Positions 16,424-53,086 of a stretch of 64,000 nucleotides of DNA are shown piece by piece. The stretch's first letter is position 1. The number at the start of each line of letters is the position of its first letter. The notes below the pieces were generated by a model, which saw only the letters and a program-made list of their open reading frames with translations, did not search any database and was not told where the DNA came from. Origin of the DNA: Maribacter hydrothermalis (GTDB lineage Bacteria; Bacteroidota; Bacteroidia; Flavobacteriales; Flavobacteriaceae); contig NZ_CP018760.1 in assembly GCF_001913155.1 (NCBI RefSeq), positions 3,534,001-3,598,000 on the forward strand. Reading direction: 5' to 3'. The translations under genes were made by a program, and so were the position numbers.

Positions 16424-16478
16424 TAATTGTTTAATTTTGAGTGATAAAATTTAAACACAAATTTATAAAACTAAATTT

Positions 16479-37840: not shown

Positions 37841-37890
37841 AAAATTGTAATACTTCGTTTAATTAATTTAAACATATAATTACTAGGAAG

Positions 37891-38499
37891 CTAAAACTCC
37901 GTACATGTGATGCTTTGAATAATTAAATTTTCCAAGGAATCATCTCGATTGTCTAAAATATGACGAATAGAATTACCTATCATACCAACTTCAGAACTTC
38001 CTGTCCTAGCACCGTTAGCAGTTTTCCAAATAATTTTAAGCCTTACATTATTGGCAGAGTTATTTGTAACCAAATAGGCCTTATAACTTCCTATTTCTGC
38101 CACTTGCACGTCTACACAAAAATCATATTTTCCGAGGGTATAAATACCTATGTGAACTTTGCCATTAATTTGTTTGAAGTCTATTGTCTTAGGAAAAGCA
38201 TTACCAACACCGGCTACAACGGCAATAAAATCTTCAATATTCTCAGCATCAGTTTTTAGTTGTTTGAATTCTAAAATTTCTTCAGGAGAAAAGTCTTCTG
38301 ATTCTTTTAAAATCTCTTCTATTTCATCGGCAATGTCTTCTGCATCATCTTTTAACTCTTCACACGCGTCCTCATCCATTATTGCTTCTTTAAAATCACC
38401 TATGATTCTGGAAAGATTTCGATTGAAGTCGTCGGGGCTTTGAAAACCTGAACACGGGATTAAAAAACTTAGAAAAAATAAGGTGATTAAAGTTTTCAT
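37891..38499 (-). CDS. Secreted protein, third gene of the AbiE operon
   Basis: 202 residues. Residues 1-20 form a signal peptide (MKTLITLFFLSFLIPCSG, with Cys but no classic lipobox because Pro precedes it). An acidic helical stretch with many Asp/Glu follows (about 38-85), then a beta-rich C-terminal half with GKVHIGIYTLGKYDFCV. I do not recognise the family. Its ATG touches the stop of the toxin gene (TAAATG), so it is translated from the same messenger. A secreted partner in an abortive infection operon is odd; it could also belong to the next operon. Confidence 0.6.
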   Translation of the reverse strand: MKTLITLFFLSFLIPCSGFQSPDDFNRNLSRIIGDFKEAIMDEDACEELKDDAEDIADEIEEILKESEDFSPEEILEFKQLKTDAENIEDFIAVVAGVGNAFPKTIDFKQINGKVHIGIYTLGKYDFCVDVQVAEIGSYKAYLVTNNSANNVRLKIIWKTANGARTGSSEVGMIGNSIRHILDNRDDSLENLIIQSITCTEF

Positions 38500-39291
38500 T
38501 TATTTTATTTTGGTCATTAGTTCATTTTTAAGCCACCCAAAAGCAGCTTCGTGATTGTATTCAATTTCTGGTCGCAACAAAGCTTCCATATCTCCTGTAA
38601 AATTAGGGTCGTTCTCTTTTTCCTCTATATTCATTAAAAACTCTTTTCTACTTGGTGTTTTGTCCACGGAGAACTTCATGTATTCATTAAAGCATTGGAT
38701 GATAGCATCATGGTCTAATTTCAAATTCAATCTAGAATAATCTAAATCAAACAAATCGCGACCTTTGCTACGTTGGTATAATGCCCTAAGCTTAGTACCT
38801 AAAAGTTCATTGATGTTGTACGTTCGAATATTAGCGCTTCCTTTAAACCAATCGCTTTGCACCTCAAAAGGAAATTCAACCCATGGTAGTACATTAAAAT
38901 GCTCTTTACAATTAATTTCTAATTTTAAGCGCAGTCTAATACCCTCATATTCAGAAGTAAAACGATATAATGCTTTTGCTCCATGTCCTCCGATTTTAGT
39001 GCTTCTTTTTTCTTCAAAAAATGTAATGACTTCATTGAGACGTTGCATTATTGGTTTTATTGGACCTTCTTTAATTTGAACCAAATCGATATCTTCAGAA
39101 TATCTTGGCGCAGGATTTAGATACAATTTATGCAAAGCAGTTCCACCCCTAAAGGCTAGATTTTCTCTTAGAAAATTATCAGAGAAAATTTCTACTAATG
39201 CTCTGCTAATTACAAGGTCTTGTTCTACTTGATAAAACTGTTTCCAAGGGGCTTGTTTTTGCCATTTTGCTATGTAGGGCTTTGGAATCAT
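38500..39291 (-). CDS. AbiEii/AbiGii-type nucleotidyltransferase toxin
   Basis: 263 residues of the type IV toxin-antitoxin group. FRGGTALHKLYLN is the GG(S/T)xLxK motif and RYSEDIDLVQ is the DxD metal-binding motif of the nucleotidyltransferase fold. The following Lys/Asp-rich segment LGTKLRALYQRSKGRDLFDL is also conserved in this family. Related enzymes (MenT-type) block growth by modifying tRNA or other targets with nucleotides. It overlaps its antitoxin gene by 4 bases (ATGA), the normal arrangement. Confidence 0.9.
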   Translation of the reverse strand: MIPKPYIAKWQKQAPWKQFYQVEQDLVISRALVEIFSDNFLRENLAFRGGTALHKLYLNPAPRYSEDIDLVQIKEGPIKPIMQRLNEVITFFEEKRSTKIGGHGAKALYRFTSEYEGIRLRLKLEINCKEHFNVLPWVEFPFEVQSDWFKGSANIRTYNINELLGTKLRALYQRSKGRDLFDLDYSRLNLKLDHDAIIQCFNEYMKFSVDKTPSRKEFLMNIEEKENDPNFTGDMEALLRPEIEYNHEAAFGWLKNELMTKIK

Positions 39292-40079
39292 AAATCGTTT
39301 TCCAGTTTTATATTCACATCAACTTTCCAGTGATTATTAATGGCTCCAGGTCTCTCTTTTGATTTTGGACTCAATAACACCGGATAGTATTTTGATGCCT
39401 TTAAGCATTCCATAATTGGTACATATAAATTAGATTCAACTTGTAGTGCTGACTCTAACAAAAAACCAAAACGTTGTAGGGTGCTTTTGTGAGGATACCA
39501 ACTTAATAAGTCGTTTATGTCTTGAACGGTAATCTCTTCTGATAACTCTTCTAGAATGGCTAACATTCTATTAATTCCACCCAACTTAGTTTGATGACTA
39601 ATTAAATCTGCAGCGGTTAGCGCTGGACTTGAAATTTTAAAAATACCTGCGTCCGATTTTTTTTCTAAAATGTTTTTTGTTGGCCATTTTGAAGTTGTAA
39701 AAAAATGGATGTCCAGCGATGATTTTTTAATGTTAGGAAATTGGTTATCCGTCATCACATATTCCCGTTGCACTTGTTGATGTCCTGCACCGTGAAATTT
39801 TGCAGCGGAATAAAAGCCCAGGTAATACTTACTATCCAAATAGTTAAAAAGTTTATCTGCAAATAATTGTATAGGAAGCTGTTCTTGTTTTGAATATCTT
39901 GGTGGAATGATTAGGTAAAATCCTTTTCTTAGATTTATAATTTCCTTTTTTGTTACCAATCGAGAGAGCTCTCGCGTTAAAGCAGTTTCTGTTTTATGAC
40001 ACTTTTGTATAAGTTCATCCCAGGAAAATGAGTACTCTTCAACCGATTGTAATTGCTTTATGTAGTCTGAAATATCCAA
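39288..40079 (-). CDS. AbiEi-type antitoxin and autorepressor
   Basis: 263 residues. The N-terminal winged helix (about 1-60; TALTRELSRLVTKKEIINLRKGFYL) and C-terminal domain match AbiEi. In the studied systems AbiEi represses its own promoter by binding inverted repeats and neutralises toxicity. The frame starts with TTG and no ATG lies nearby, so the exact start is uncertain. An inverted repeat, TACCA-N5-TGGTA, sits 26 bases upstream as a candidate operator. Confidence 0.85.
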   Translation of the reverse strand: MDISDYIKQLQSVEEYSFSWDELIQKCHKTETALTRELSRLVTKKEIINLRKGFYLIIPPRYSKQEQLPIQLFADKLFNYLDSKYYLGFYSAAKFHGAGHQQVQREYVMTDNQFPNIKKSSLDIHFFTTSKWPTKNILEKKSDAGIFKISSPALTAADLISHQTKLGGINRMLAILEELSEEITVQDINDLLSWYPHKSTLQRFGFLLESALQVESNLYVPIMECLKASKYYPVLLSPKSKERPGAINNHWKVDVNIKLENDL

Positions 40080-41006: not shown

Positions 41007-41038
41007 TTGTTTAATGTTATTTAAAATTAATTAAACAT
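41007..41038. promoter_or_regulatory. Shared operator, site 1 (TTGTTTA-N18-TAAACAT)
   Basis: TTGTTTA at 41007-41013 and TAAACAT at 41032-41038, 18 bases apart. It lies 57 bases before the small-protein gene that opens the photolyase-region operon. Four further sites have the same half-sites and spacing. Confidence 0.75.
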
Positions 41039-41094
41039 TTTGTATTTTTACTATTAAATTCTAGAAACTAATTTCTAAATATTAGAAAGCAACT

Positions 41095-41256
41095 ATGTTC
41101 GGATTATTCAAAAAGAAAACAGAGAAAGAAAAATTACAAACTCAATATGAAAAGCTTTTAAAAGAAGCGCACACTTTATCTACTACAAATAGGAAGATGA
41201 GCGACCAAAAAACTTTCGAAGCAGAAGAAATAATGAAACAGCTGGAAAAGCTGTGA
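41095..41256 (+). CDS. Lacal_2735 family small protein
   Basis: 53 residues, MFGLFKKKTEKEKLQ at the start and a helical, heptad-like middle (KLQTQYEKLLKEAHTL). This is the short flavobacterial Lacal_2735 family of unknown function. It sits 57 bases after operator site 1 and 18 bases before the next gene, so it is the first gene of the operon. Confidence 0.75.
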   Translation: MFGLFKKKTEKEKLQTQYEKLLKEAHTLSTTNRKMSDQKTFEAEEIMKQLEKL

Positions 41257-41274
41257 TACTAAGTTCTATTTAAA

Positions 41275-41676
41275 ATGGCAGAGGATAAAAAACCCGATAC
41301 TGTAGTTTTCAATAATGAGTCCAAAAAATATGATGCAGCTCTTAAACCCTATGCAACTTCTGTTGGTGCACCAGTAATAACACCTACCGATACTATTGCT
41401 TGGAAAAATAGAAGTATCAATAAAATAAATCACAAGTACAAAACAAAATACTTAGAACTTAAGGCCGAGTACGAAACAATGATGCAGGAGTTCCAATACA
41501 ACAAACTTGTATTGAATGCAACTATTTCGTTTGAACCTATTGTAGGCGAACTATATCATTTATACAAGAAAGAGAATGGGGAATCCTTTCTTTCTATTAT
41601 AGAACCAGAACAGTGTAAATTTAATTTTATTGGTAGTTTTTATTTTAATGCAGACCAAATTTGGGAGAAATTATAG
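41275..41676 (+). CDS. DUF2452 domain protein
   Basis: 133 residues matching DUF2452: KPDTVVFNNESKKYDAALKP at the N-terminus, a helical middle (KINHKYKTKYLELKAEYETMM), and an Asp/Glu-rich end with FNFIGSFYFNADQIWEKL. The function is unknown. It is found with photolyase-region genes in this locus, and its stop is 6 bases before the TIGR03643 gene. Confidence 0.75.
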   Translation: MAEDKKPDTVVFNNESKKYDAALKPYATSVGAPVITPTDTIAWKNRSINKINHKYKTKYLELKAEYETMMQEFQYNKLVLNATISFEPIVGELYHLYKKENGESFLSIIEPEQCKFNFIGSFYFNADQIWEKL

Positions 41677-41682
41677 ATTAAA

Positions 41683-41970
41683 ATGGGTGACACAAAACAA
41701 TTTACAGAGCGAGAACTAGATCGCATTATTGAAATGGCTTGGGAAGATCGCACACCTTTTGAAGCACTATTATTTCAATTTAAAATACCTGAAAAAGAGG
41801 TAATTAAAATTATGCGAGGTAATCTTAAAGAATCTAGTTTTAAGCGTTGGCGCAAACGCGTTAATAGTGGTGTTAGTAGTAAGCATTTAAAAAAGCGAAG
41901 TGATGAAATCACACGTTTTAAATGCACCAGGCAACGTGCCATTTCAGGAAATAAAATAAGTAAGCGTTAA
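41683..41970 (+). CDS. TIGR03643 family protein
   Basis: 95 residues. The signature ELDRIIEMAWEDRTPFEALL, followed by a helix-turn-helix-like FQFKIPEKEVIKIMRGNL, matches TIGR03643, a small family that often neighbours photolyase and cryptochrome genes. The role is unknown; DNA binding is possible from the helix arrangement. Its stop overlaps the next start by one base. Confidence 0.8.
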   Translation: MGDTKQFTERELDRIIEMAWEDRTPFEALLFQFKIPEKEVIKIMRGNLKESSFKRWRKRVNSGVSSKHLKKRSDEITRFKCTRQRAISGNKISKR

Positions 41971-43085
41971 TGAAGTTCGCAACTCATACTCCTGTTCATT
42001 TTCCTACTAATTTCGGGGCTATTTTAAATAGAATTGCAGCAATTGATCCTATTAATTATGGACCTACACGAAATTATATTGATGGTGCGGTAAGTTATTT
42101 ATCACCCTATATCTCGCGTGGTGTAATTTCTACAAAATTTGTATATGAACAATTATTAAGCAGAGGCTTTCACCCTGGGCCTTGTATGAAATTTATCCAG
42201 GAACTTGCTTGGCGAGATTATTGGCAACAAGTATGGATCGCTAAAGGTGACGCCATAAACACGGATATAAAACAAGCACAAACACCTGTACATACGACTA
42301 ATATATCCAGTGCCATTGTTCATGCAAATACGGGAATAAAAGTTATTGATAATGCTGTAGACCAATTGTACACTACAGGATATATCCACAATCATTTACG
42401 TATGTATTTGGCATCTATTGCTTGTAATATTGCTCAAAATCATTGGAAAACTCCAGCGCAATGGATGTACTATTATTTATTAGATGCAGATTGGGCAAGT
42501 AATGCTCTTAGCTGGCAATGGGTTGCAGGTGCTAATAGCAATAAAAAGTATTATGCAAATCAAGAGAATATAAACACCTTTTGCTACAGCAACCAAACCA
42601 ATACTTTTTTGGATGTTTCTTATGACGAATTCGAAAGCTTAGACGTACCTGAAATCTTAAAAACTACCGAAGTCTTTAATTGTATTTCATCATTACCACC
42701 AAAAACGAACATCGTTGTAAACGAAGAATTACCCACTTGTATTTATAATTTCTACAATTTAGATCCTATTTGGAAAAATGACATATCGGCAAATCGTATT
42801 TTTATATTGGAGCCATCACATTTTAATCAGTATCCTATTTCTAAAAACACGATAGATTTTATTTTAAATCTTGCTAAGAATATAACAGGTATTCAAATAT
42901 ATGTAGGCGAATTTAATGAGCTACTATGTGATTATAAGCACCTAAATATATATTTTAAAGAGCATCCGCTAAACAAACACTATAATGGTATTGAAGAACC
43001 TAGGGATTGGATGTTTAATGTTCACGGTTATTACCCTTCATTTTTTGCTTTTTGGAAAAAATGTAAAAAGCAAATTCATTTTTGA
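41970..43085 (+). CDS. Photolyase-related FAD-binding protein with reversed domain order
   Basis: 371 residues. Unlike photolyases, it begins with the FAD-binding helical domain (about 18-215): SYLSPYISRGVIS, ELAWRDYWQQVW, TGYIHNHLRMYLASIA and WQWVAGANSNKKYY are the FAD-contacting segments. The alpha/beta antenna-like domain follows at about 255-371 (RIFILEPSHFNQYP, GIQIYVGEFNELL). This is a circular permutation. Substrate and activity are unknown; blue-light sensing or repair is inferred. It is coupled to its neighbours by overlaps of 1 and 4 bases. Confidence 0.75.
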   Translation: MKFATHTPVHFPTNFGAILNRIAAIDPINYGPTRNYIDGAVSYLSPYISRGVISTKFVYEQLLSRGFHPGPCMKFIQELAWRDYWQQVWIAKGDAINTDIKQAQTPVHTTNISSAIVHANTGIKVIDNAVDQLYTTGYIHNHLRMYLASIACNIAQNHWKTPAQWMYYYLLDADWASNALSWQWVAGANSNKKYYANQENINTFCYSNQTNTFLDVSYDEFESLDVPEILKTTEVFNCISSLPPKTNIVVNEELPTCIYNFYNLDPIWKNDISANRIFILEPSHFNQYPISKNTIDFILNLAKNITGIQIYVGEFNELLCDYKHLNIYFKEHPLNKHYNGIEEPRDWMFNVHGYYPSFFAFWKKCKKQIHF

Positions 43086-43423
43086 ACAAGGAGCCTTTAA
43101 ATATTGTTTGGTTACAACGTGATTTTAAATCGCAAGACCATCGGCTTTTATTTAAGGCTGGGCTTTCTGGTATCCCTTATCGTATTATATATTTGTGTGA
43201 GCACTCACTTGTTGAATATTCCATTACTAGCCCAAGATATTTACAGTTTATTTATCTTTCTATCTTAACATTAAATAGAATACTGGCTCCTTTTAATAGA
43301 AGGGTCGCTATTTTGTGTATAAACTATAGCCATGGATTACCCTTTCCCAATCGTGAAATTACAAGAAGGCCAGGTTTAACAAGAGATAAAATATGGGACA
43401 CAAAAAGCGTATTTCTTTATTAA
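43082..43423 (+). pseudogene. Photolyase remnant with a large internal deletion
   Basis: 113 residues, TTG start. The first 78 or so match the N-terminus of DASH/CPD-type photolyases (NIVWLQRDFKSQDHRLL, then a PFNRRVAIL-type strand). The last 30 (LPFPNREITRRPGLTRDKIWD) look like a photolyase C-terminus. About 300 intervening residues with the FAD site are missing, so it cannot act as a photolyase. It still overlaps the preceding gene by 4 bases, consistent with an in-frame deletion in an operon. Confidence 0.6.
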
Positions 43424-43467
43424 TAGACAAAAAACGAATAGTGAATAAACACATAAATAAAAACTAA

Positions 43468-44100
43468 ATGATGTATACCAAGGAAGCTATAGAAAACATG
43501 GACCGTATTACAAGGTTAAAATTATTCAATGCTATTTCGGGTATAAAATCTGCAAATCTTATTGGGACTATTGGTACTAACGGAACTACTAATTTGGCTA
43601 TCTTTAACTCAGTAGTTCATATAGGTAGTGACCCCGCTCTTGTGGGATTTATCTCTAGACCACAAACCTCTGAAGTTGGCCATACGTTAAGGAATATTCA
43701 AGAAAACGGACATTATACGATAAACCATGTGCATCCTGAATTTATTAAAAATGCCCATTATACCTCAGCAAAGTTTGAGGCACACCTATCAGAATTTAAA
43801 CAGTGTAAATTAACCGAGGAGTATACTAAAGGTTTCCAAGCACCTTTTGTAAAGGAAAGTACATTTAAAATGGGTGTGCTGTTTAAAGAGGCGATAGAAA
43901 TTAAGCTAAACGGTACCTTTTTGGTAATTGGCGAAATTGATCATGTTATGTTACCTAAAAATTCTTTTGTTGATGATGATATTAATTTAGAGCTTACAAA
44001 GAGCGTTGGTGTTTCGGGGTTGAATACTTATTATTCTTTAAAGAAACTTGAAAAACATCCTTTTGTAAGAATACATGAAGTGCCTAAATTTTTAGAATGA
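43468..44100 (+). CDS. Flavin reductase family protein (flavoredoxin-like)
   Basis: 210 residues with the FMN-binding split-barrel fold. [21 protein letters not shown] and [18 protein letters not shown] contain the conserved FMN-contact segments, and HFV-type residues GVSGLNTYY mark the end region. It supplies reduced flavin or uses FMN in electron transfer, which fits a neighbourhood of FAD photolyases. It is followed by a 4-base-overlapping DUF2256 gene. Confidence 0.8.
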
Positions 44101-44225
44101 AGAAACAACACCTACCTCAAAAAATATGTATCGTATGTGAGAAACCCTTCACCTGGCGAAAAAAATGGGAAAAGAATTGGGAAGAGGTAAAATATTGTAG
44201 TGAACGTTGTAGAAGAAATAAATGA
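44097..44225 (+). CDS. DUF2256 small zinc-ribbon-like protein
   Basis: 42 residues with two cysteine pairs, CIVC and CSERC, around an aromatic, basic middle (FTWRKKW). This matches DUF2256, a tiny family that travels with photolyase and TIGR03643 genes. It overlaps the flavin reductase stop by 4 bases (ATGA), so it is the last gene of this operon. Confidence 0.85.
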
Positions 44226-44379
44226 ATAAATTAAAGATAACTTCAAATTTCCGGTCACGCTATTATATTAAAATCGAAAGTTTATTGTTTATAGGCTTGC
44301 TCCAAAAAATTAAGGTCCCATTTTAAGAATACTTTGTGCCTATTTTGGGATGTTTTTAAAAGTTCACCTGATAATAGAA

Positions 44380-44639
44380 AATTAAAAATTTTTACTCACT
44401 ATCGAAATCTTGATTTAAAGCCTTGTGTGCTGGCCGTTAGGTAGTTTACTCGATAATCGAGATTTAAAAGCTCCGAGGTTTGCCTCCAAATGAAAGTATT
44501 TCTTCCGATAAATCCCTCATAGGCTGGCCCTAAAGGAGTTTACTCGATAATCGAGATTTAAATGCTCCGACGCATGCGTCGAAATATTAATTATGTTTTC
44601 AATTCAATGCCTCGCGGGCTTGTCCCGAGGTTATTTACT
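44380..44639. repeat. Tandem 94-95-nt repeat units (copies A and B) with CTCGATAATCGAG palindromes
   Basis: Palindromes at 44449-44461 and 44543-44555 are 94 bases apart. Copy B also holds the perfect palindrome CGACGCATGCGTCG (44568-44581) and ends CCCGAGGTTATTTACT. A worn earlier copy lies at about 44391-44440. The next gene's stop codon (44635-44637) lies inside the repeat end. The 409-base region 44226-44634 holds nothing else I can see. Confidence 0.75.
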
Positions 44640-45084
44640 GTTTTTTGTTTAGATTCTTTGATGTCTTAAAAAGTTGCATGAAAGTAAGCGTAAGAATCAA
44701 CGTCGTGGCAATTCCCATTATTGCAACAGTAAAGAATACCATACCTTCAAGATTTAAATTTTCGAATCTATTTTCAAAGAGTTGCGTTAAAAAATCTGTA
44801 TTAATTTCAGTTGCATAAAAGGCAAAAAAGAGTGTAAATATAAGGGTGCCCATAAAACCAGTAATTAATCCCGTAGAAAATCCTTTGGCATAATTAAATT
44901 TTTGACCTTCTTCAAGAACCCGATATTTTATCGCCTCGTAAATTCCAAATCCTGTAATTACTACGTTGAATAGACTATAAAAAACTTGGGTATGAAGGTT
45001 AATCAAGGATAAGATTAAAAAATAAGCAATTAAGGAACCACTCGTTGCTAATCCAAAACGTATAGGTAAACTGAAATTTCTCAT
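44635..45084 (-). CDS. DUF4199 membrane protein
   Basis: 149 residues with four predicted membrane helices (about 12-30, 38-50, 72-95 and 118-138). The stretch IYEAIKYRVLEEGQKFNYAK is typical of DUF4199. The function is unknown. It is divergent from the photolyase-like gene, with operator site 2 between them, and its stop lies within repeat copy B. Confidence 0.7.
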   Translation of the reverse strand: MRNFSLPIRFGLATSGSLIAYFLILSLINLHTQVFYSLFNVVITGFGIYEAIKYRVLEEGQKFNYAKGFSTGLITGFMGTLIFTLFFAFYATEINTDFLTQLFENRFENLNLEGMVFFTVAIMGIATTLILTLTFMQLFKTSKNLNKKQ

Positions 45085-45154
45085 GACTTTTTAGGTATAA
45101 ATTTATGATTAAAACTACTTGCTATTATGCTTGCCAAAATAGGAATCGCTATCT

Positions 45155-45186
45155 TTGTTTAAAGATATATCAAAAAAAATAAACAA
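45155..45186. promoter_or_regulatory. Shared operator, site 2 (TTGTTTA-N18-TAAACAA)
   Basis: TTGTTTA 45155-45161 and TAAACAA 45180-45186. It lies 30 bases before the photolyase gene and 71 from the divergent DUF4199 gene. A TATATTTT box follows at 45190-45197. Confidence 0.8.
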
Positions 45187-45215
45187 AATTATATTTTTAC
45201 GTATTTTCATTCAAA

Positions 45216-46706
45216 ATGAAACAAATAAACCTCGTATTTCCACACCAATTATTTAAAGAATCTCCAATTTTTGAAGTAAACACAACTGTTTACTTAATTG
45301 AGGAATATTTATTCTTTAAGCACTATCCATTTCACAAACAAAAAATTGCCTTTCATAGAGCAACTATGAAAAGATATGCAAATTTTCTTCAAAAAAATAA
45401 AAATTTGGAGGTACATTATATTGAAGCCATAGCAGATAATTCTGACATTCGATTACTTATTCCTGAATTAAAAAGTAAAGGTGTTGAACATATCAATTAT
45501 ATTGACCCTACAGATAATTGGCTACAAAAACATATAAAAAAAGCGTGTTTAGATAACGATATATCAACTACAATTTATAACTCGCCCTTGTTTCTAAATA
45601 ACAAAGAAGACTTATTGACTAGTTTTTTTAGAACGGGTAAAAAGAAATATCATCAAACTACTTTTTACACGGAACAGCGAAAAGAACGAAATATACTAAT
45701 TGAAGCGGATGATAAACCTACAGGTGGTAAATGGACATTTGATTCTGAAAATCGAAAGAAATATCCAGCTAAGAAAACACCTCCTTCTATTCAATTTCCA
45801 GATGCGGATGATTATTACAAAGAAGCTAAAGCTTATGTGGAAAAGAACTTTTTAACTCATTTGGGAACTATTACGGAACATTCTTTATATCCAACTAGTT
45901 TTGAGGCCACTAAAGTATGGCTCGATCAATTTTGTGAGGAGCGATTTATAAACTTTGGCGCATTTGAAGATGCTATCGTTGCCGAAAATTCAATACTAAA
46001 CCACAGTGTTTTAACACCTATGCTTAATGTAGGCTTAATTACTCCAAAAGAAATTATTGATATTTGCTTGAACTATGCTAAACAAAATAAGGTGCCTGTT
46101 AATTCTACCGAAGGCTTTGTGCGTCAAATTATTGGTTGGCGAGAATTTATAAGAGGTATTTATGAAGCTAGGGGTAACGAACAGCGTACGACGAATTTCT
46201 GGAAATTTAAAAAGAAAATTCCTGACTCATTTTATAATGGTACTACCGGTATTCCTCCTATAGATCAAACGATAAAAAAGGTTTTACAAACGGGATACTG
46301 TCATCATATTGAACGCCTAATGGTGCTAGGTAATTTTATGATGTTATGTGAGTTTGATCCGGACGAAGTCTACAAATGGTTTATGGAACTTTTTATCGAT
46401 GCCTATGACTGGGTTATGGTACCGAACATTTATGGCATGAGCCAATTTGCAGATGGTGGTTTAATGGCAACTAAACCTTATATAAGCGGTAGTAACTATC
46501 TGATGAAAATGAGCGATTATATGAAAGGAGAATGGCAAGCGACCTGGGATGGTCTTTTTTGGCGTTTTATGCATACTCATCGCGATTTCTTTCTGTCTAA
46601 TCCCCGCTTAAGCATGTTAGTACATATGTTTGATAAATTATCCAATGATAAGAAGCAAACGCATTTAGAAAATGCAGAAAATTTTTTACAAACTTTAAAC
46701 TCGTAA
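45216..46706 (+). CDS. FeS-BCP-type photolyase/cryptochrome homologue lacking the Fe-S cysteines
   Basis: 496 residues of the bacterial 6-4 photolyase/CryB (PhrB) family. The antenna domain covers about 1-130; the FAD domain has GFVRQIIGWREFIRG, GYCHHIERLMVLGNF, FMELFIDAYDWVMVPN and GLMATKPYISGSNYL. The cluster loop that in PhrB carries C-x2-C and a further Cys is replaced by KMSDYMKGEWQATWDGL, with no cysteine. It probably still binds FAD. Because relatives repair 6-4 photoproducts, repair or light signalling is expected. It is the first gene of its operon, after operator site 2. Confidence 0.85.
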   Translation: MKQINLVFPHQLFKESPIFEVNTTVYLIEEYLFFKHYPFHKQKIAFHRATMKRYANFLQKNKNLEVHYIEAIADNSDIRLLIPELKSKGVEHINYIDPTDNWLQKHIKKACLDNDISTTIYNSPLFLNNKEDLLTSFFRTGKKKYHQTTFYTEQRKERNILIEADDKPTGGKWTFDSENRKKYPAKKTPPSIQFPDADDYYKEAKAYVEKNFLTHLGTITEHSLYPTSFEATKVWLDQFCEERFINFGAFEDAIVAENSILNHSVLTPMLNVGLITPKEIIDICLNYAKQNKVPVNSTEGFVRQIIGWREFIRGIYEARGNEQRTTNFWKFKKKIPDSFYNGTTGIPPIDQTIKKVLQTGYCHHIERLMVLGNFMMLCEFDPDEVYKWFMELFIDAYDWVMVPNIYGMSQFADGGLMATKPYISGSNYLMKMSDYMKGEWQATWDGLFWRFMHTHRDFFLSNPRLSMLVHMFDKLSNDKKQTHLENAENFLQTLNS

Positions 46707-46743
46707 AAACTATGAAAATAGGATCATTGAAAATTACCTTCTT

Positions 46744-47097
46744 ATGAATATCTTAGGCATGGCCGTATTTCTATCTAGTAGTGCTTTCTATTTCTATGGT
46801 GTAAATTGTTTAATCTCTAAACACATGGTACATGAGTTTATAAGGTTTGGACTCGGTAAAAAAAGTAGGTTATTAACGGGATATTTGCAATTACTTGGCG
46901 CTAGTGGTTTATTGTATGGTTTCTTTTTTTCACCCGTTTTGGTTTTTATCGCCTCTACCGGGTTAACAGTATTAATGATCTTAGGGTTCGCAGTACGCAT
47001 TAAAATTAAAGACAGTCTAATGCTAGCTATGCCATCTTTAATATTCGCTTTCATTAATCTATATATTTGTATAGAATATTACAAGATGCTATTCTAA
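46744..47097 (+). CDS. DoxX-like membrane protein, copy 1
   Basis: 117 residues with four hydrophobic helices (about 5-18, 42-58, 64-82 and 92-110) and a DoxX-like middle GKKSRLLTGYLQLLGASGLLYG. It lies 37 bases after the photolyase-like gene and is likely in its operon. DoxX proteins are tied to redox stress, but no activity is shown here. A similar gene lies on the other strand 8 bases further on. Confidence 0.65.
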   Translation: MNILGMAVFLSSSAFYFYGVNCLISKHMVHEFIRFGLGKKSRLLTGYLQLLGASGLLYGFFFSPVLVFIASTGLTVLMILGFAVRIKIKDSLMLAMPSLIFAFINLYICIEYYKMLF

Positions 47098-47104
47098 GTT
47101 ATAC

Positions 47105-47467
47105 TTATACAAAGGCTATAAAAAGACACATTACTAAAAATAGTGCTGCAGGTAAGGATTTGATCAAGGGGTCTTTTATTTTAATATGCATAAGTATAGA
47201 ACCGGTTAAAAGTGCTGCCAATCCTAAAGCTGCAGGTTGTTTTAAAAATGGATGCCATATTGATAAAACAAGTAAGATGGCTAAGGTGACCTTAAGAAAG
47301 CCAATAAGATAGCAGATTCCGGTAGACAGACCGTAGACGTGAAATTCTTCGATAATTGTGGTTGCATTCCCTCCACGCCAACGTGTCGGTTTTTTATTCT
47401 GAACTAGCCATACGTTTAAAATACTTATACTTACGATAACTTGAAGAGCACTAATTACATAATCCAT
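47105..47467 (-). CDS. DoxX-like membrane protein, copy 2
   Basis: 120 residues with four hydrophobic helices and GLSTGICYLIGFLKVTLAILL in the second part. It is a distant relative of the convergent copy at 46744. It starts 91 bases from operator site 3, which it shares with the divergent hypothetical gene at 47642. Confidence 0.65.
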   Translation of the reverse strand: MDYVISALQVIVSISILNVWLVQNKKPTRWRGGNATTIIEEFHVYGLSTGICYLIGFLKVTLAILLVLSIWHPFLKQPAALGLAALLTGSILMHIKIKDPLIKSLPAALFLVMCLFIAFV

Positions 47468-47557
47468 ATCCTACAATTATTATTGGTTTCTATTTTTTGA
47501 ATTTATATATCATTGAAAAGTTAAGTGTAATCACTTTCCGTTATAAAAATACTAATT

Positions 47558-47589
47558 TTGTTTATTATTTTATGTAAATTGTTAAACAA
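47558..47589. promoter_or_regulatory. Shared operator, site 3 (TTGTTTA-N18-TAAACAA)
   Basis: TTGTTTA 47558-47564 and TAAACAA 47583-47589, between the DoxX-like gene and a hypothetical gene, both transcribed away from it. Confidence 0.8.
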
Positions 47590-47641
47590 ATATCTGTAAA
47601 TCTATAGTAGAAATATTAAAAATTTTAAAACACAACAAGGC

Positions 47642-48067
47642 ATGTTATTTAATACCAGTTATCTTCATAAAGAATATACTAAAGAAAGTGTACGGGTAGT
47701 AGGTGAAGCTTTTTCTTTTTCCGAAATGTTAAAGCTCGGTGTTATAGGTTCCGGTAGGTTGATTATAAAAGAATTAATCACAAAACTGCGACCAAAAAAT
47801 CTGCAACTAATTGCCATTAATTATTCAAATATTGAGCTACGACCAAAAGGCATTGTAGTGCATTCTTCGCCAGGACTTGACCGTTATTCTTGGATAATTC
47901 CGTATTATCGTTTAGTTAATTATAATACGCAAACGTTCAGTATCCACTCCAACGGAAATTTTATAAAATTTTCTAGAAATAGGAACTACCTTGATAATAA
48001 AAAGTTTATTGATAAAATGAGTGATTTTAAAAATAACTTTTTAAACCTAACCTATTATGATTCGTAG
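47642..48067 (+). CDS. Conserved hypothetical protein
   Basis: 141 residues, no signal peptide. It contains a beta-rich middle (LQLIAINYSNIELRPKGIVV) and an aromatic, basic end (FIKFSRNRNYLDNKKFID). I recognise no family. It starts 53 bases after operator site 3 and precedes the CIA30 gene by 60 bases. Confidence 0.55.
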   Translation: MLFNTSYLHKEYTKESVRVVGEAFSFSEMLKLGVIGSGRLIIKELITKLRPKNLQLIAINYSNIELRPKGIVVHSSPGLDRYSWIIPYYRLVNYNTQTFSIHSNGNFIKFSRNRNYLDNKKFIDKMSDFKNNFLNLTYYDS

Positions 48068-48127
48068 TACTAGTAAACAAAGTAAATATAACCGCAAATA
48101 ATTCTACTCAATATACCTTTAGTAATT

Positions 48128-48619
48128 ATGACTTCAGTACCTATTTTTGATTTTAAAATAACAAGTGATACTAATCATTGGACCATTGTTGATGACGTGG
48201 TCATGGGTGGTAAATCATCAGGAAAATTCACTTTAAATAAAGAAGGGAATGGTGTTTTTGAAGGTGACATTTCACTAGAAAACAATGGTGGGTTTTCTTT
48301 GTTGCGCTATCGGTTTAATAAAATAGGTACCAAACAATATTCAAAAATTATATTGAAGGTTAAAGGTGATGGAAAAACGTATCAGTTCAGAATTAAAAGT
48401 AAGACAACTGATGATTATGCTTACATAAGTTTTTTTAATACTTCAAAAGATTGGGAAACTATAACGGTATCTTTAGCTTCTATGTATCCGGCATTTAGAG
48501 GGCGTAAGCTCAATTTTTCAAATTATGATCAAGAATCTATTGAAGAAATTGCATTTTTAATTGGGAATAAAAAAGAAGAGAATTTTAAGTTAGAAATTGA
48601 TTCTATCGTTTTAAAATAG
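48128..48619 (+). CDS. CIA30 family protein
   Basis: 163 residues matching the CIA30 (complex I intermediate-associated protein 30) beta-sandwich: WTIVDDVVMGGKSSGKF, FEGDISLENNGGFSLLRY and VKGDGKTYQFRIK. In bacteria its function is not established; it may bind sugars or ligands. There is no signal peptide. It is the second gene after operator site 3. Confidence 0.8.
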   Translation: MTSVPIFDFKITSDTNHWTIVDDVVMGGKSSGKFTLNKEGNGVFEGDISLENNGGFSLLRYRFNKIGTKQYSKIILKVKGDGKTYQFRIKSKTTDDYAYISFFNTSKDWETITVSLASMYPAFRGRKLNFSNYDQESIEEIAFLIGNKKEENFKLEIDSIVLK

Positions 48620-48740
48620 TTGCTGTAGTTTGTGTTTAGTAATACTTAATAAAGTGAACATAGACTCCCTTCAGAAATAAGAGCGGTCATTATGCGATTC
48701 TATTTCAAAATCTAAAGGAATCTTTAAATAATTATAGTAA

Positions 48741-49265
48741 TTACAAGTGCTTTGTAATTTTTGAGCTTATAGGTTTGGTAATGGAGTAGTAGTAATCAAT
48801 TAAATTTCCTTGTTCATCAACTAAATACTTTTGAAAATTCCATTTTACACTAGAATTTTTTTTACCATTTAGTTCTTTTGTTGTAAGCCATTGGTATAAT
48901 GGGTGTTGCTTACTGCCTTTTACAGCTATTTTTTCTGTTAGTAAAAAGGTAATACCAAAATTCAGTTCACAAAATTCTTGAATTTGCGAGGAACTTCCAG
49001 GCTCTTGTTTCCCAAATTGGTTACAGGGAACACCAATGACCACGAGTTTATCAGCATACATATCGCTCAGCTTTTGAAGTTCCTTATATTGATTCGTAAA
49101 TCCGCATTCGGAGGCCACATTTACAAAGAGTATCTTCTTCCCTTTAAAATCGTTCAATGAAATTGGTTGGCCGGTTAAGCTCTTTATAGCGATATCATAA
49201 ATAGATTTCTTTTTTATTTTTGTAGCAGCTCTTGTTGGCAATTTTGCTTTATCTGTTGTTTTCAT
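48741..49265 (-). CDS. Glutathione peroxidase-type thiol peroxidase
   Basis: 174 residues. The peroxidatic Cys lies in NVASECGFTNQYKEL, with Gln in GVPCNQFGKQEP and Trp/Asn in VKWNFQKYLV, completing the GPx catalytic tetrad. CNQF also holds the resolving-type Cys of thioredoxin-dependent bacterial forms. It reduces peroxides. It follows folE on the same strand across 232 bases that contain repeat copy C. Confidence 0.85.
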   Translation of the reverse strand: MKTTDKAKLPTRAATKIKKKSIYDIAIKSLTGQPISLNDFKGKKILFVNVASECGFTNQYKELQKLSDMYADKLVVIGVPCNQFGKQEPGSSSQIQEFCELNFGITFLLTEKIAVKGSKQHPLYQWLTTKELNGKKNSSVKWNFQKYLVDEQGNLIDYYYSITKPISSKITKHL

Positions 49266-49399
49266 AGCTATTTATATTTTTAAGGTCACCATCTTGGAGT
49301 CTTTCATTATTTTTTGGTAAACGATTTAATTTATGCAATCATAAAGAGCGTGTTTTGGGTGCTTATATTTTAGGGTTTAACTTATGCATTTATTTTGAT

Positions 49400-49500
49400 T
49401 TTTGCTCGATCATCGAGATTTAAATACCCAGACGCTTAAGTGAAAACTTAATTAATTTTTGAATTAAATGCTTTGCGGCTTGCCCCGAGGTTGTTTGCTA
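49400..49500. repeat. Repeat copy C (CTCGATCATCGAG)
   Basis: Palindrome at 49405-49417, then a 94-nt unit ending CCCCGAGGTTGTTTGC. As with copy B, the neighbouring minus-strand gene (folE) has its stop codon (49498-49500) inside the unit end. It is the main content of the 232-base gap between folE and the peroxidase gene. Confidence 0.75.
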
Positions 49501-50196
49501 TTGGTTTAAATAATTCTGTAATTCAGAAATTTTGTTTGGGGTATTGAACACTCCACCATAAAATGACGTTACAGTCGTAGAAGTATCATCTTTGATTCCT
49601 CTAGAAGAAACACACAAATGTTTTGCGTCTATGATCACTGCAATATCTTCGGTATCCAATACCTTGTTTAATTCTGCCGCTATTTGGTTTGTTAGTCGCT
49701 CCTGTACTTGTGGCCGCTTTGCATAATATTGTACTATTCTATTCAGCTTAGATAGTCCTATTACTTTACCGGATGAGATGTATGCAATATGTGCCTTTCC
49801 TATAATAGGAACAAAATGATGTTCACAATTAGAATAAAAGCTAATGTTTTTCTCAACTAGCATGTGATTATATCGATATTTATTTTCAAACAAGGTAACC
49901 TTTGGTTTATTTGCCGGGTTTAGACCCGAAAAAAGCTCTTCAATATACATTTTGGCAACTCTATTCGGAGTACCTTTTAATGAATCATCTGTAAGGTCTA
50001 GCCCCATTACATCCATAATTTGACCGAATAATTCAGAAATTTTTTCTCTTTTTTCTATGTCACTTAAAAAAGGTGCATTAGGTTTCATTGGTGTTTCTAA
50101 ACCTGTATTTAAGTGATCTTCTCCTATTTCATCAATAGAAAGGTCGCTAATTGTGCTAATATTGGTAAGTGCTGTATTTTCTGTTTTTAACTTCAT
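49498..50196 (-). CDS. folE: GTP cyclohydrolase I
   Basis: 232 residues. The zinc and active-site residues are in FYSNCEHHFVPIIGKAHIAY (Cys, His, His) and KHLCVSSRGI (Cys, His region), and KVIGLSKLNRIV is the family signature. It converts GTP to dihydroneopterin triphosphate, the first step of folate and tetrahydropterin synthesis. About 40 N-terminal residues are less conserved. It is divergent from the CDP-alcohol transferase gene with operator site 4 between them. A PTPS-type gene nearby suggests a tetrahydropterin branch. Confidence 0.93.
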   Translation of the reverse strand: MKLKTENTALTNISTISDLSIDEIGEDHLNTGLETPMKPNAPFLSDIEKREKISELFGQIMDVMGLDLTDDSLKGTPNRVAKMYIEELFSGLNPANKPKVTLFENKYRYNHMLVEKNISFYSNCEHHFVPIIGKAHIAYISSGKVIGLSKLNRIVQYYAKRPQVQERLTNQIAAELNKVLDTEDIAVIIDAKHLCVSSRGIKDDTSTTVTSFYGGVFNTPNKISELQNYLNQ

Positions 50197-50306
50197 CTTG
50201 TATTAAGTAAAAATATAGTTTGTTGTGCTTTAAAATAGTTATACGCTTGTAGTGCGTTCTTTTGTACTAGAAAAGAAGTCTCACTATCGTATTCAAATTT
50301 ACAATT

Positions 50307-50338
50307 TTGTTTAATTAAATAATATAATAATTAAACAA
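50307..50338. promoter_or_regulatory. Shared operator, site 4 (TTGTTTA-N18-TAAACAA), extended to a 15-bp-arm palindrome
   Basis: TTGTTTA 50307-50313 and TAAACAA 50332-50338. The arms extend as AATTTTGTTTAATTA and its exact complement. A -7 box TACTTTTG (50345-50352) follows. It serves folE (minus strand) and the CDP-alcohol transferase gene (plus strand). Confidence 0.85.
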
Positions 50339-50455
50339 AATTAATACTTTTGTGCTTTTACTATTTAGTAAGCTATGGTATACTTATTTTTAATAAAATG
50401 GTTCATTAACAAAGAGGTTATTGATAAGGTAAAAATCTAGATTTAAAAATATAGT

Positions 50456-51217
50456 ATGTCCAAATTACCTTTAGAACATAGATTTTTAGACCTTTCGGAT
50501 TATGGGAGGTATTTTGGAAAATCTATTGCTAATTCACTAAAAGAAACTTCATTTACTCCTATAGATGTCACCATTTGGTTTATCATTTCGGGTTTACTGG
50601 CCATTGTTTTTATTTTATTGGAACTTTACTGGGGAGCTGCTTTTTTTTTAATTTTTAAATCTATTTTGGATGCTGCTGATGGAGAATTGGCAAGGGTAAA
50701 AAAAACACCTTCGCATACGGGTCGCTATCTAGATTCTATTGCAGATATTATTTTAAATATTTTCATTTTTACTGCGCTTTGGTATTCCTCACAAGCTAGT
50801 TTTATTTCATGTTTTCTTGGCTTTTTAGCTATTCAACTACAAGGTACTTTATACAATTACTATTACGTTATCTTAAGAAATAATTTAAATGGCGATACAA
50901 CGAGTAGGGTATTTGAAATTGATTGTCCCATTGCTATGAAAGGGGAAAAGCAAAAAAATGTAAACTTGCTTTTTAGAATTTATAAAGTGCTTTACGGGGT
51001 TTTTGATAAAACAATTTATAGACTGGACCCAACAGCTGCTAAAAGTAAAAGATTCCCTAAATTACTAATGACCGGGGTATCTACATTTGGACTTGGTTTT
51101 CAGCTTTTTGTTATCAGTGCTATGCTCGTTTTAGGGTTTAAAGAATTTATTTTTTCTTTCTTTTTGTGGTACTCGATACTGATTTTTGTTTTTATTGGTA
51201 TTCGAAAACTACTGTAG
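50456..51217 (+). CDS. CDP-alcohol phosphatidyltransferase family protein
   Basis: 253 residues with the complete CDP-alcohol signature D-G-x2-A-R-x8-G-x3-D-x3-D in DAADGELARVKKTPSHTG, then RYLDSIAD (about 79-104). Six or so membrane helices surround it. It joins a CDP-activated lipid group to an alcohol, but the alcohol (inositol, glycerophosphate, other) cannot be told. It is divergent from folE across operator site 4, so the two genes are likely co-regulated. Confidence 0.85.
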   Translation: MSKLPLEHRFLDLSDYGRYFGKSIANSLKETSFTPIDVTIWFIISGLLAIVFILLELYWGAAFFLIFKSILDAADGELARVKKTPSHTGRYLDSIADIILNIFIFTALWYSSQASFISCFLGFLAIQLQGTLYNYYYVILRNNLNGDTTSRVFEIDCPIAMKGEKQKNVNLLFRIYKVLYGVFDKTIYRLDPTAAKSKRFPKLLMTGVSTFGLGFQLFVISAMLVLGFKEFIFSFFLWYSILIFVFIGIRKLL

Positions 51218-51274
51218 TTTGGATCATATTATTTTAAGACTGCTTTATACCATGCTCTATTTTCAAGACTCATT

Positions 51275-51688
51275 TTATGAATAAGGGTATTCCACAAAGT
51301 TTCTTGGTGTTTCATATAGTTTAATTTTTAAATCAAATTGAGATTCAATTTCTGGTCTTAAAATGTTATAAACGACTATTGCTATATTTTCGGCCGTAGG
51401 ATTAAGATTTGTAAACTCTTCGGTATCTAGGTTAAGGTTTCTATGATCAAACCTATTCAGGATTTTTTCTTTTATTAGGTCAGACAAAATCTTGGTGTCT
51501 ATTACATAACCCGTTTCTGGATTACATAAACCAATTACCTTTACTTCTAATTCGTAATTATGACCATGGTAATTGGGGTTGTTGCATTTGCCAAAAATTT
51601 TTTTGTTTTTTTCGTCACTCCATTCCTTATTATGTAAACGGTGTGCTGCATTAAAATGTTCACACCTTACAATCGCAATCTTTTTCAT
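51275..51688 (-). CDS. 6-pyruvoyl-tetrahydropterin synthase-type protein
   Basis: 137 residues. The zinc histidines lie in CEHFNAAHRLHN and YHGHNYELEV, and the FGKCNNPNYHGH stretch with the catalytic Cys resembles eukaryotic PTPS more than typical QueD. It acts on 7,8-dihydroneopterin triphosphate, the product of FolE. It is divergent from the FAD oxidoreductase, with operator site 5 between them. A queuosine role (QueD) is the main alternative. Confidence 0.8.
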   Translation of the reverse strand: MKKIAIVRCEHFNAAHRLHNKEWSDEKNKKIFGKCNNPNYHGHNYELEVKVIGLCNPETGYVIDTKILSDLIKEKILNRFDHRNLNLDTEEFTNLNPTAENIAIVVYNILRPEIESQFDLKIKLYETPRNFVEYPYS

Positions 51689-51745
51689 TTATATAGGGGG
51701 TTATAGTTGTAAAATATATTCTTGGTCGTAAAAGTATTTTAATTA

Positions 51746-51777
51746 TTGTTTACTATTTTATAAAATTTGTTAAACAT
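51746..51777. promoter_or_regulatory. Shared operator, site 5 (TTGTTTA-N18-TAAACAT)
   Basis: TTGTTTA 51746-51752 and TAAACAT 51771-51777, 58 bases from the PTPS gene and 56 from the FAD oxidoreductase start. A TAGTTTTG box (51791-51798) with a TTG 21 bases before it (51767-51769) gives a plausible promoter for the plus-strand gene. Confidence 0.8.
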
Positions 51778-51832: not shown

Positions 51833-53086
51833 ATGAAAAATTCTAATCTTAAAGTACATATTGTAGGCGCAGGTATTAGCGGACTGGTTGCCGCTGCCGT
51901 TCTTGAACAAAATGGATATTCGCCTGTGATTATTGAAGCTACCAATAGCGTTGGAGGTAGAGTAAAAACCGCTATCGTAGATGGTTATCAACTAGATCAC
52001 GGTTTCCAGGTATTACTTTCGGCATACCCAGCAGCTAAAAAGTATCTTGATTTTGATTCGTTAGAATTGCAAACATTCCTACCTGGTGCCGTTATTTTTA
52101 AATATGGGAAAGAGTTGACCATTGGTGACCCTTTAAGAGATGTCTCTTTTTTATTTTCTACATTATTTTCTGGGATAGGAAATTTTTCCGATAAAATTAA
52201 AATACTAAAGCTAAACAGGAGATTAAAGAAAAAATCATTGTCGTCCATATTTTCGGAAAATGAGCAAACTACATTATTGTATTTAAGGCAATTAGGCTTT
52301 TCCAACGAAATTATCGAAGACTTTTTTACCCCATTTTTTAGCGGTATTTTTCTTGAAAACAAACTAAATACATCCAGCAGAATGTTTGAGTTTGTTTATA
52401 AGATGTTCGGAGAAGGTTATGCTACTATACCTAAAGCGGGAATAGGTGCTATTCCAAAACAGTTAGCTAAAAATTTAAACCATACGGTGTTTAAATTTAA
52501 CACGAAAGTGGCAACTGTACTAGACGGACAAATAGAACTGGAAAATGGTGAAAAGTTAGCAAGTGACTATACCATAGTAGCTACGGAAGCTAGTAACTTA
52601 ATTCCCAATTTAAAAAATCAAAAAACGGAATGGAAATCGTCAGATACTATCTATTTTGAAACAACAAAGCGGGTAATCAATAAACCGCTAATAGGTCTTG
52701 TTCCTGTAAATGGATCGCTAATTAATTCTATTTTTTATCCTACAAGTCTTGGGACTATTTCTAAAAATTCTAAAGAGTTACTTTCTGTAACGATAGTTGA
52801 TAATCAAAACCTACCAACTAAAATTCTTATTGAGCGTGTGCAACAAGAATTAAAGCGATACTGCGCAATAGAATCCTGCAGTTTTATTAAACACTACAAA
52901 ATTCCTAATTCATTGCCAGTACTGAACAATTTGCAATATGATATGTTACCTTCGGAAACCCGTTTAAATACAGGTGTTTTTCTTGCAGGTGATACCTTAC
53001 TTAATGGCTCTCTTAATGCAGCAATGATTGCTGGGGAAATGGCTGCGCTTGGTGTCGTAGAAGCAATTACAAATACCAAACGTTAA
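51833..53086 (+). CDS. FAD-dependent amine oxidase/phytoene desaturase-like oxidoreductase
   Basis: 417 residues. I start at the ATG at 51833 (MKNSNLKVHIVGAG), which begins right before the dinucleotide-binding motif; a frame extending to 51809 adds eight residues. VGAGISGLVAAAVLEQNGY is the FAD-binding GxGxxG, followed by EATNSVGGRVKT. The C-terminal GVFLAGDTLLNGSLNAAM is the second FAD segment. Family members include protoporphyrinogen oxidase and carotenoid-type desaturases; the substrate is open. It is in the putative regulon through site 5. Confidence 0.8.
   Translation: MKNSNLKVHIVGAGISGLVAAAVLEQNGYSPVIIEATNSVGGRVKTAIVDGYQLDHGFQVLLSAYPAAKKYLDFDSLELQTFLPGAVIFKYGKELTIGDPLRDVSFLFSTLFSGIGNFSDKIKILKLNRRLKKKSLSSIFSENEQTTLLYLRQLGFSNEIIEDFFTPFFSGIFLENKLNTSSRMFEFVYKMFGEGYATIPKAGIGAIPKQLAKNLNHTVFKFNTKVATVLDGQIELENGEKLASDYTIVATEASNLIPNLKNQKTEWKSSDTIYFETTKRVINKPLIGLVPVNGSLINSIFYPTSLGTISKNSKELLSVTIVDNQNLPTKILIERVQQELKRYCAIESCSFIKHYKIPNSLPVLNNLQYDMLPSETRLNTGVFLAGDTLLNGSLNAAMIAGEMAALGVVEAITNTKR

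Follow-up and report, generated by a model that had tools for sequence, protein, structure and literature searches.

CarH and the LitR proteins are the closest described relatives of the regulatory system reported here. A contact sequence of nAnnTnnACAn has been described for CarH (PMC8156234), in which TnnACA corresponds to the marked segment of the half-site (PMC9304148), and PplR1 of Pseudomonas putida and PmlR2 of Pseudomonas mendocina are class II LitR proteins with a light-induced regulon (PMC9758184). In Flavobacteriia that bear proteorhodopsin, a proximity cluster of photolyase genes is enriched (PMC5932025). We analysed a 64,000-nt stretch of the Maribacter hydrothermalis chromosome (NZ_CP018760.1, positions 3,534,001 to 3,598,000; hereafter the window), in which five copies of TTGTTTA-N18-TAAACA(A/T) precede photolyase, pterin and flavin genes. 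We consider it probable (roughly 0.8) that these five sites, possibly with a sixth, are operators of one CarH/LitR-like MerR protein predicted to act as a dark repressor released by light. The argument draws on the computed sites and their conservation, their co-occurrence with the regulator, a site at the regulator's own start, a match to the half-site core and a change of specificity between clades.

Five spaced repeats and their distribution in the genome

By-eye reading in the initial annotation had placed TTGTTTA at five promoters of the photolyase and pterin region, with TAAACAA or TAAACAT standing exactly 18 bases beyond each, and all five copies were confirmed at the same positions (operators 1–5 in Table 1), upstream of genes and in four of the five cases between divergent genes. 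The exact motif gave eight strand matches at these five places, compared with a mean of 0.00 and a maximum of 0 in 100 shuffles of the window sequence with dinucleotides preserved. Across the 4.27-Mb genome it occurs at eight places, five of which fall within 10.8 kb of window sequence, and no exact copy of the reversed pattern was found there; exact copies are thus rare elsewhere in the genome, and the abundance in other AT-rich intergenic DNA that the initial annotation had named as refuting its regulon was not observed. The three places outside the window, which the initial annotation had missed, are chromosome positions 661137 and 3200577, each preceding a different fasciclin protein gene, and 713780, which separates htpG from a TetR gene; behind the latter stands an ABC1-like gene (named by eye). 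Summed over 36 genus genomes, the exact motif was found 176 times and the reversed control 19 times. A scan of gaps from 10 to 26 in 80 photolyase loci recovered the exact arms 16 times at N18 and 0–1 times at every other gap.

With up to one mismatch allowed, the pattern showed no excess over the reversed control in the same genome (25/24 against 25/23); single-mismatch sites were therefore used only with support from context or conservation, and their number was dropped as evidence. Context or conservation supports six of them, at 3218176 (merR, see below), 3862408, 3891313, 663142, 663250 and window position 16427. The site at 3862408 belongs to an operon whose first gene lacks a Pfam match and which carries SDR and cryptochrome/photolyase genes at its end; 3891313 lies 12 nt 5′ of where a second folE probably begins; and 663142 and 663250 stand at a further fasciclin-like protein gene (by eye). 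The 16427 site is a possible sixth window operator, also missed before, and an exact site with a similar interior occurs in another genome (G011; genomes, loci and families carry our labels G, L and f). Intergenic single-mismatch sites near 123827, 867992 and 1799000 had no other support and are not claimed.

A CarH-like MerR protein with a site at its own start

The initial annotation had proposed a MerR/CarH-like regulator encoded outside the window, and computation supports this with a candidate at 3217284-3218207 (G000:C1), located about 0.36 Mb from the first window site on the same chromosome; its match at 3217287-3218207 is the sole one in the genome. Its frame comprises 307 AA residues and probably starts at an ATG eight codons in, which gives 299 residues. 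It is followed on the same strand by genes for a phytoene desaturase, a phytoene synthase and a carotene hydroxylase-like protein (merR-crtI-crtB-crtZ, the crt names by eye). Site 3218176 spans the start of this gene.

Among 30 merR loci (L110-L139, the present genome and 29 loci of the same genus), all 30 carry a site at N18 with one mismatch, and the 18-base interior varies. In a wider locus set, 41 merR genes have a site with up to two mismatches; TAnnTTTG is fused to the 5′ arm in 39 of these, and in most the 3′ arm overlaps or touches the start codon. The same layout recurs in other families at L141 (51% protein identity) and L144 (43%), while at L142 (44% identity, another family) the site is instead upstream of TACTTTTG. 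A 3′ arm at the start codon combined with a −7 box in the 5′ arm is the layout that would be expected of a self-repressor.

Further sites were observed around merR in other genomes. G305, G136, G207, G211 and G263 hold an exact operator just past the merR stop, which perhaps gives the crt genes separate control. In G049 (family f14) the merR start carries an N18 site with two mismatches, TTGTCTA/TGAACAA (L146:2864-2896), and an exact site follows some 1.5 kb further on, at +1475 from that start; in G063, also of f14, an exact site lies on that side of merR as well (C52:10031).

Operator architecture and mode of action

Geometry was scored for 110 sites lying at least 40 nt from a locus end, of which 58 were asymmetric, 42 symmetric and 10 of other form. 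The asymmetric sites have the consensus TTGTTTAAc-N14-gTTAAACAT and carry TAnnTTTR exactly 4 nt past the 3′ arm in 42 cases (0.1 expected); at operator 1 the −7-like box at this distance is TATTTTTA, and at operator 2 both arms are fused to TAnnTTTG. The arm core TAAACA fits the TnnACA of CarH, by construction of the motif, and the two core half-sites face outward, as TGTnnA-N18-TnnACA. A match of the arms to the 11-bp CarH half-site is supported for the TnnACA core alone; if each half-site does measure 11 bp, the 32-bp operator would divide into 11 + 10 + 11, with centres 21 bp apart.

Measured from the operator start, −7-like boxes lie at about −5 (merR), +15 (proteorhodopsin genes) and +36 (promoters of type A), some two turns apart, the −5 class overlapping the arm and hence giving no independent evidence of phasing. 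Such a box lies 3–6 nt past the distal arm in 68 of 153 gene-facing orientations and in none of 67 others. The notion of a TAnnTTTG fused to every gene-facing arm was discarded, being only weakly true outside merR (22/153 against 3/67 in other orientations; as background, 7.6% of TTTG are preceded by TAnn).

Physical binding, repression, cofactor loading and release by light are predictions. Without light, the regulator would sit on the operator, most likely with adenosylcobalamin (AdoCbl) bound, and exclude RNA polymerase, since operator and Bacteroidetes −7 box (TAnnTTTG) overlap or adjoin; light would destroy the AdoCbl cofactor and thereby free the promoters. The light and B12 steps are suggested by homology and by a regulon content that resembles the Pseudomonas LitR light regulon. 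The regulon would combine light protection with light use, comprising photolyases, cryptochrome, carotenoids, pterin synthesis (folE, PTPS) and flavin/FAD enzymes, together with peroxidases, fasciclin surface proteins, merR itself and, in the relatives that have it, proteorhodopsin.

The same CarH-like protein might instead mainly activate the type A promoters and repress its own gene alone, an unlikely but credible alternative. The constant 4-nt distance between arm and −7 box would suit an activator, as would the rarity of the −33 element, a TTG at a spacer of 19–22 being present in just 9 of the 68 promoters of this type, where the operator could replace it. Against this, the −7-like boxes of the −5 and +15 classes are inside or fused to the operator, as fits a steric block, and LitR/CarH proteins are described as repressors whose sites lie over the −35 and in the interval from start to ATG (PMC9758184, PMC8156234). 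The three −7 positions and the site at the merR start thus favour steric block, and the fixed distance and missing −33 element leave room for activation at type A promoters.

Conservation of the predicted DNA- and cobalamin-binding modules

An N-terminal MerR winged-helix domain (PF13411, 2.3e-13; PF00376, 1.9e-08) and a four-helix bundle B12-binding_2 domain (PF02607, 4.3e-10) were detected in the candidate by Pfam, and its closest solved structures are those of Thermus CarH (3whp/5c8d, E 5e-15). In the recognition helix, the second R of the published RxWERRY is replaced by K or Q, the sequence being RIWEKRY in 34/34 genus members and RxWE[K/Q]RY in 5/5 other loci of the same type. Using the motif definitions of PMC9304148 for the alignment, Wx9EH was found in 46/46 aligned MerR proteins and the lower-ligand His of ExH in 45/46. 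The D/ExHx2G/P motif reads EIH[DE]IG in 34/34 genus members, and ExH is kept in 5/5 other same-type loci (two without the final G) and in 6/7 distant ones. The Ser of the Rossmann B12 motif is present in 34/34 genus members, but SxT/V as written is not matched, and at a column chosen by eye the GG of the B12 motif is absent from all 34, with GR/LGR or another sequence in its place. The score against the NCBIfam CarH equivalog was 74.1 bits, below the cut-off of 400.

A degenerate B12 pocket would accord with a LitR protein that senses light or stress through a partner, or redox or B12 status, without AdoCbl photolysis. The apparent loss of the GG speaks for this possibility, as do the class II LitR of Pseudomonas, which works with a short LOV partner (PMC9758184), and a PAS-UbiA protein encoded downstream of two sites in the sister clade described below. 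We regard it as improbable, given that Wx9EH and the ExH His are retained and that the genome encodes a corrinoid adenosyltransferase (PF01923, E 1.4e-58).

Co-occurrence of motif and regulator, and a change of half-site in a sister clade

The exact motif TTGTTTA-N18-TAAACAA was counted in 296 genomes of the order that are at least 90% complete, with MerR called strong at E < 1e-42, a cut chosen after the match list was seen. It was present in 103 of 125 genomes with a strong MerR (270 sites against 36 for the control), in none of 23 with a weak MerR (0 against 2) and in 4 of 148 without MerR (4 against 15). Within the family of the window genome, 64/69 genomes with MerR and 0/4 without it contain the motif.

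The weak-MerR loci L148-L152 have TGTATA-N18-TATACA upstream of merR, which is absent from that position at L147. WTGTATA-N18-TATACAW was found in 17/23 weak-MerR genomes (57 sites against 5 in the control), 12/125 strong-MerR genomes (12 against 15) and 17/148 MerR-less genomes (20 against 13); it occurs in all 17 genomes whose weak MerR has E <= 2.1e-16, and the six genomes without it have E values of 9.6e-7 or worse. Where a MerR locus had its own operator in scorable form and its frame sufficed for alignment, the recognition helix sorts the operator type without exception: the 40 TGTTTA loci carry KAHTIR[IVA]WE, and the 14 TGTATA loci a helix of the LRTWE[NK]RY type. L157 and L204 have no scorable MerR frame and so stand outside this scoring.

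Gene context was inspected in 20 chosen regions around sister sites, covering 23 of the 57 sites. Many sister sites stand before the gene families already seen with the TTGTTTA operators. The regions contain PTPS-folE/SDR genes, an FAD-binding photolyase-type protein, fasciclin, merR, glutathione peroxidase, DUF2452, cryptochrome/photolyase, an SRPBCC-like gene followed by a flavin reductase, and a rhodopsin-carotene dioxygenase pair next to which umuDC-like genes run divergently (L208 by Pfam; L216 and L224 by eye); in regions L219, L220, L222 and L226 no gene of the known set stands at the sister site. The operator lies between the umuDC-like genes and the rhodopsin pair at position 2465 of L208, 2470 of L216 and 2475 of L224, a layout that would join error-prone repair and light harvesting in one switch. 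Directly 3′ of two TGTATA operators, L221:2565-3842 encodes a UbiA-type prenyltransferase that carries a fused PAS domain. Genome G147 (family f11), 90% complete, has four TGTATA-N18-TATACA sites and no MerR match; its assembly may lack the MerR gene.

A TetR_C_23 protein (L021:8928-9581) was also considered as the regulator, with merR a mere target. An exact site lies between tetR and htpG, in its own promoter, and many photolyase loci have sites before comparable TetR-like frames (by eye). Co-occurrence makes this very improbable, and it was rejected: with TetR scored at E 1e-15 (some matches outside the family being only about 35% identical), the motif was found in 73/87 strong-MerR genomes with TetR and 30/38 without it, but in only 1/26 genomes with TetR and no strong MerR, against 3/145 with neither, and the half-site change of the sister clade tracks the MerR helix. 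That the repeats arise by chance or as a general trait of AT-rich promoter-like DNA, with no regulon, would fit the single-mismatch count alone and is negligible in view of the shuffles, the reversed-pattern and gap controls and the near absence of the motif from MerR-less genomes.

Putative operators upstream of proteorhodopsin genes in relatives

Marine flavobacteria rank among the important users of proteorhodopsin, and we know of no regulator that ties proteorhodopsin expression to light. The present genome has no PF01036 match; the domain is present in 59 of 249 family genomes. Of the best-scoring 30 rhodopsin loci, 27 have RYVDW, which we take to be the proton-pump motif, and the three without RYxDW were dropped. 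Allowing one mismatch, on either strand and up to 400 nt upstream, TTGTTTA-N18-TAAACAW precedes the proteorhodopsin gene in 18 of these 27 best-scoring loci, one of which (L240) has almost no upstream DNA, and other gaps from 10 to 26 gave 0–3. Six of the genes have two sites, overlapping in L231. At 13 of the 18 genes the operator itself contains, at offset 15, a −7-like TAnnTTTR. The site was found in 17/22 genomes with a MerR at E < 1e-70 and in 1/5 others, the exception being G463 (73% complete).

We lean towards the broader proposal that one CarH-like lineage governs the whole light lifestyle of the Flavobacteriales, proteorhodopsin included, through outward half-sites two turns apart, and that half-site and recognition helix were switched between clades with the spacing fixed. 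If true, this would supply the transcriptional connection so far missing in marine flavobacteria between light, vitamin B12 and their proteorhodopsin. One protein, one DNA site and a list of predicted target promoters are now named, and the light response would depend on vitamin B12 supply. The data also offer a clear case of an operator and a recognition helix changing jointly while the spacing within the operator is kept.

Genes of the window and conservation of their sites

The genes named in the initial annotation were upheld by Pfam where tested, and Lacal_2735 and DUF2256 were read by eye (Table 1). Beside the FAD-domain-only protein, the frame at 43082-43423 (113 residues, no Pfam match) resembles by eye the N-terminal part of a photolyase, is short and is perhaps a remnant. 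Next to the light cluster, 35093-40079 holds a DNA methyltransferase-like gene and an AbiEi/AbiEii-like pair, presumably a defence-like block (names by eye).

Table 1 Putative operators and genes in the window (window coordinates).
Feature	Position	Strand	Context or basis
Operator 1, TTGTTTA-N18-TAAACAT	41007..41038	+	5′ of Lacal_2735/DUF2452/DUF2805 genes
Operator 2, TTGTTTA-N18-TAAACAA	45155..45186		between DUF4199 (-) and photolyase (+)
Operator 3	47558..47589		between DoxX2 (-) and hypothetical/CIA30 (+)
Operator 4	50307..50338		between folE (-) and CDP-alcohol phosphatidyltransferase (+)
Operator 5	51746..51777		between PTPS (-) and FAD/amine oxidoreductase (+)
Possible sixth operator, TTGTTTA-N18-TAAACAC (1 mismatch)	16427..16458		between HhH-GPD endonuclease III-like (-) and AhpC/TSA peroxiredoxin (+)
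Small protein, 53 aa (Lacal_2735)	41095..41256	+	by eye
DUF2452 protein	41275..41676	+	Pfam
DUF2805 / TIGR03643 protein	41683..41970	+	
Photolyase-type FAD-binding domain protein	41970..43085	+	PF03441; no second Pfam domain found
Flavin reductase-like protein	43468..44100	+	Pfam
Small protein, presumably DUF2256-like	44097..44225	+	by eye
DUF4199 protein	44635..45084	-	Pfam
Deoxyribodipyrimidine photolyase-related protein (DPRP + FAD_binding_7)	45216..46706	+	Pfam
DoxX-like protein 1 (DoxX1)	46744..47097	+	Pfam
DoxX-like protein 2 (DoxX2)	47105..47467	-	Pfam
Hypothetical protein (hyp47642)	47642..48067	+	no Pfam match
CIA30 domain protein	48128..48619	+	Pfam
Glutathione peroxidase (GPx)	48741..49265	-	Pfam
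GTP cyclohydrolase I (folE)	49498..50196	-	Pfam
CDP-alcohol phosphatidyltransferase	50456..51217	+	Pfam
6-Pyruvoyl tetrahydropterin synthase-like (PTPS)	51275..51688	-	Pfam
FAD-dependent amine oxidase-type oxidoreductase	51833..53086	+	Pfam

Conservation of the sites at orthologues, which the initial annotation had made a test of its regulon, was mixed. Sites were counted in the 80 photolyase loci for orthologues with at least 200 nt of upstream DNA and at least half of the query aligned. They precede orthologues of DUF2452 (14/17), hyp47642 (20/33), Lacal_2735 (13/35), DoxX2 (2/4), PTPS (1/1) and the FAD oxidoreductase (2/7); DUF4199 and the CDP-alcohol gene have no orthologue among these loci. 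Before other window genes they are seldom or never found, namely the FAD-domain protein (4/41), DUF2805 (3/52), photolyase (2/79), flavin reductase (1/46) and folE (1/22), with none before GPx (0/23), CIA30 (0/12) or DoxX1 (0/4).

These low counts weigh against a single light-released repressor, as do the other observations collected here. At the level of the genomes, 22 of the 125 strong-MerR genomes lack an exact site, the co-occurrence counts ignore shared ancestry, and the specificity change between the two clades is one tree split, that is, one evolutionary event. No N18 operator of either type was found near merR in 12 of 67 scored MerR loci (among the loci without one are L143, L145, L147, L202, L203 and L205). 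In the DNA, the outer A of nAnnTnnACAn occurs in 35/58 asymmetric sites and 40/84 symmetric arms, barely above the expectation from base composition, and on the right arm of 3/5 exact window sites; operators 1 and 5 have no TAnnTTTG fused to an arm. To these are added the type A promoters with their fixed 4-nt distance and mostly without a −33, the apparently lost GG and the missed CarH equivalog cut-off described above.

Comparison with known systems

In open PubMed Central, which most subscription papers and preprints lie outside, we found no report of the operator motif, of a Bacteroidetes CarH regulon or of its link to proteorhodopsin. MliR of Bizionia was considered as the same protein and rejected, being described as a MerR-like regulator of iron that lacks a sensor domain (PMC9478572). 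In bacterium GF1, a MerR protein with a vitamin B12-binding domain is encoded upstream of phytoene and carotene hydroxylase (zeaxanthin) genes, and the accessible part of that account names neither operator nor regulon (PMC6974559).

The LitR regulon of Pseudomonas is similar in content, with photolyase, cryptochrome, SDR, FAD oxidoreductase, folE and the regulator's own gene, and a further likeness is that its repressor sites cover the −35 or fall in the stretch from start to ATG (PMC9758184). It differs in its operator, T(G/A)TACA-N12-TGTA(C/T)A, which we read as inward half-sites with a shorter gap, compared with outward half-sites across N18 here, and in its sensor, since class II LitR retains the helix bundle alone and PmlR2 has a LOV partner (PMC9758184). 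At the Pseudomonas spacing of 12, the arms have no exact copy in the 80 photolyase loci. An outward TGT...ACA read by a MerR-like domain, as proposed here, is also known from GlnR/TnrA sites (TGTNA-N7-TNACA), where the gap is shorter by 13 bp, the regulon concerns nitrogen and the protein has no B12 domain.

With CarH of Thermus thermophilus, Bacillus megaterium and Myxococcus, the present system shares the MerR domain, the four-helix bundle with Wx9EH, the ExH His, the TnnACA core half-site, the adjacent carotenoid genes and an operator that covers the promoter. Unlike CarH, the regulator here has apparently lost the GG of the B12 motif, and the genome carries eight or more putative sites for it, at promoters of the TAnnTTTG type. 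The CarH operator consists of 3–4 tandem 11-bp direct repeats, compared with two outward half-sites across N18 here, a layout that would be new for the CarH fold and might be of use in optogenetics.

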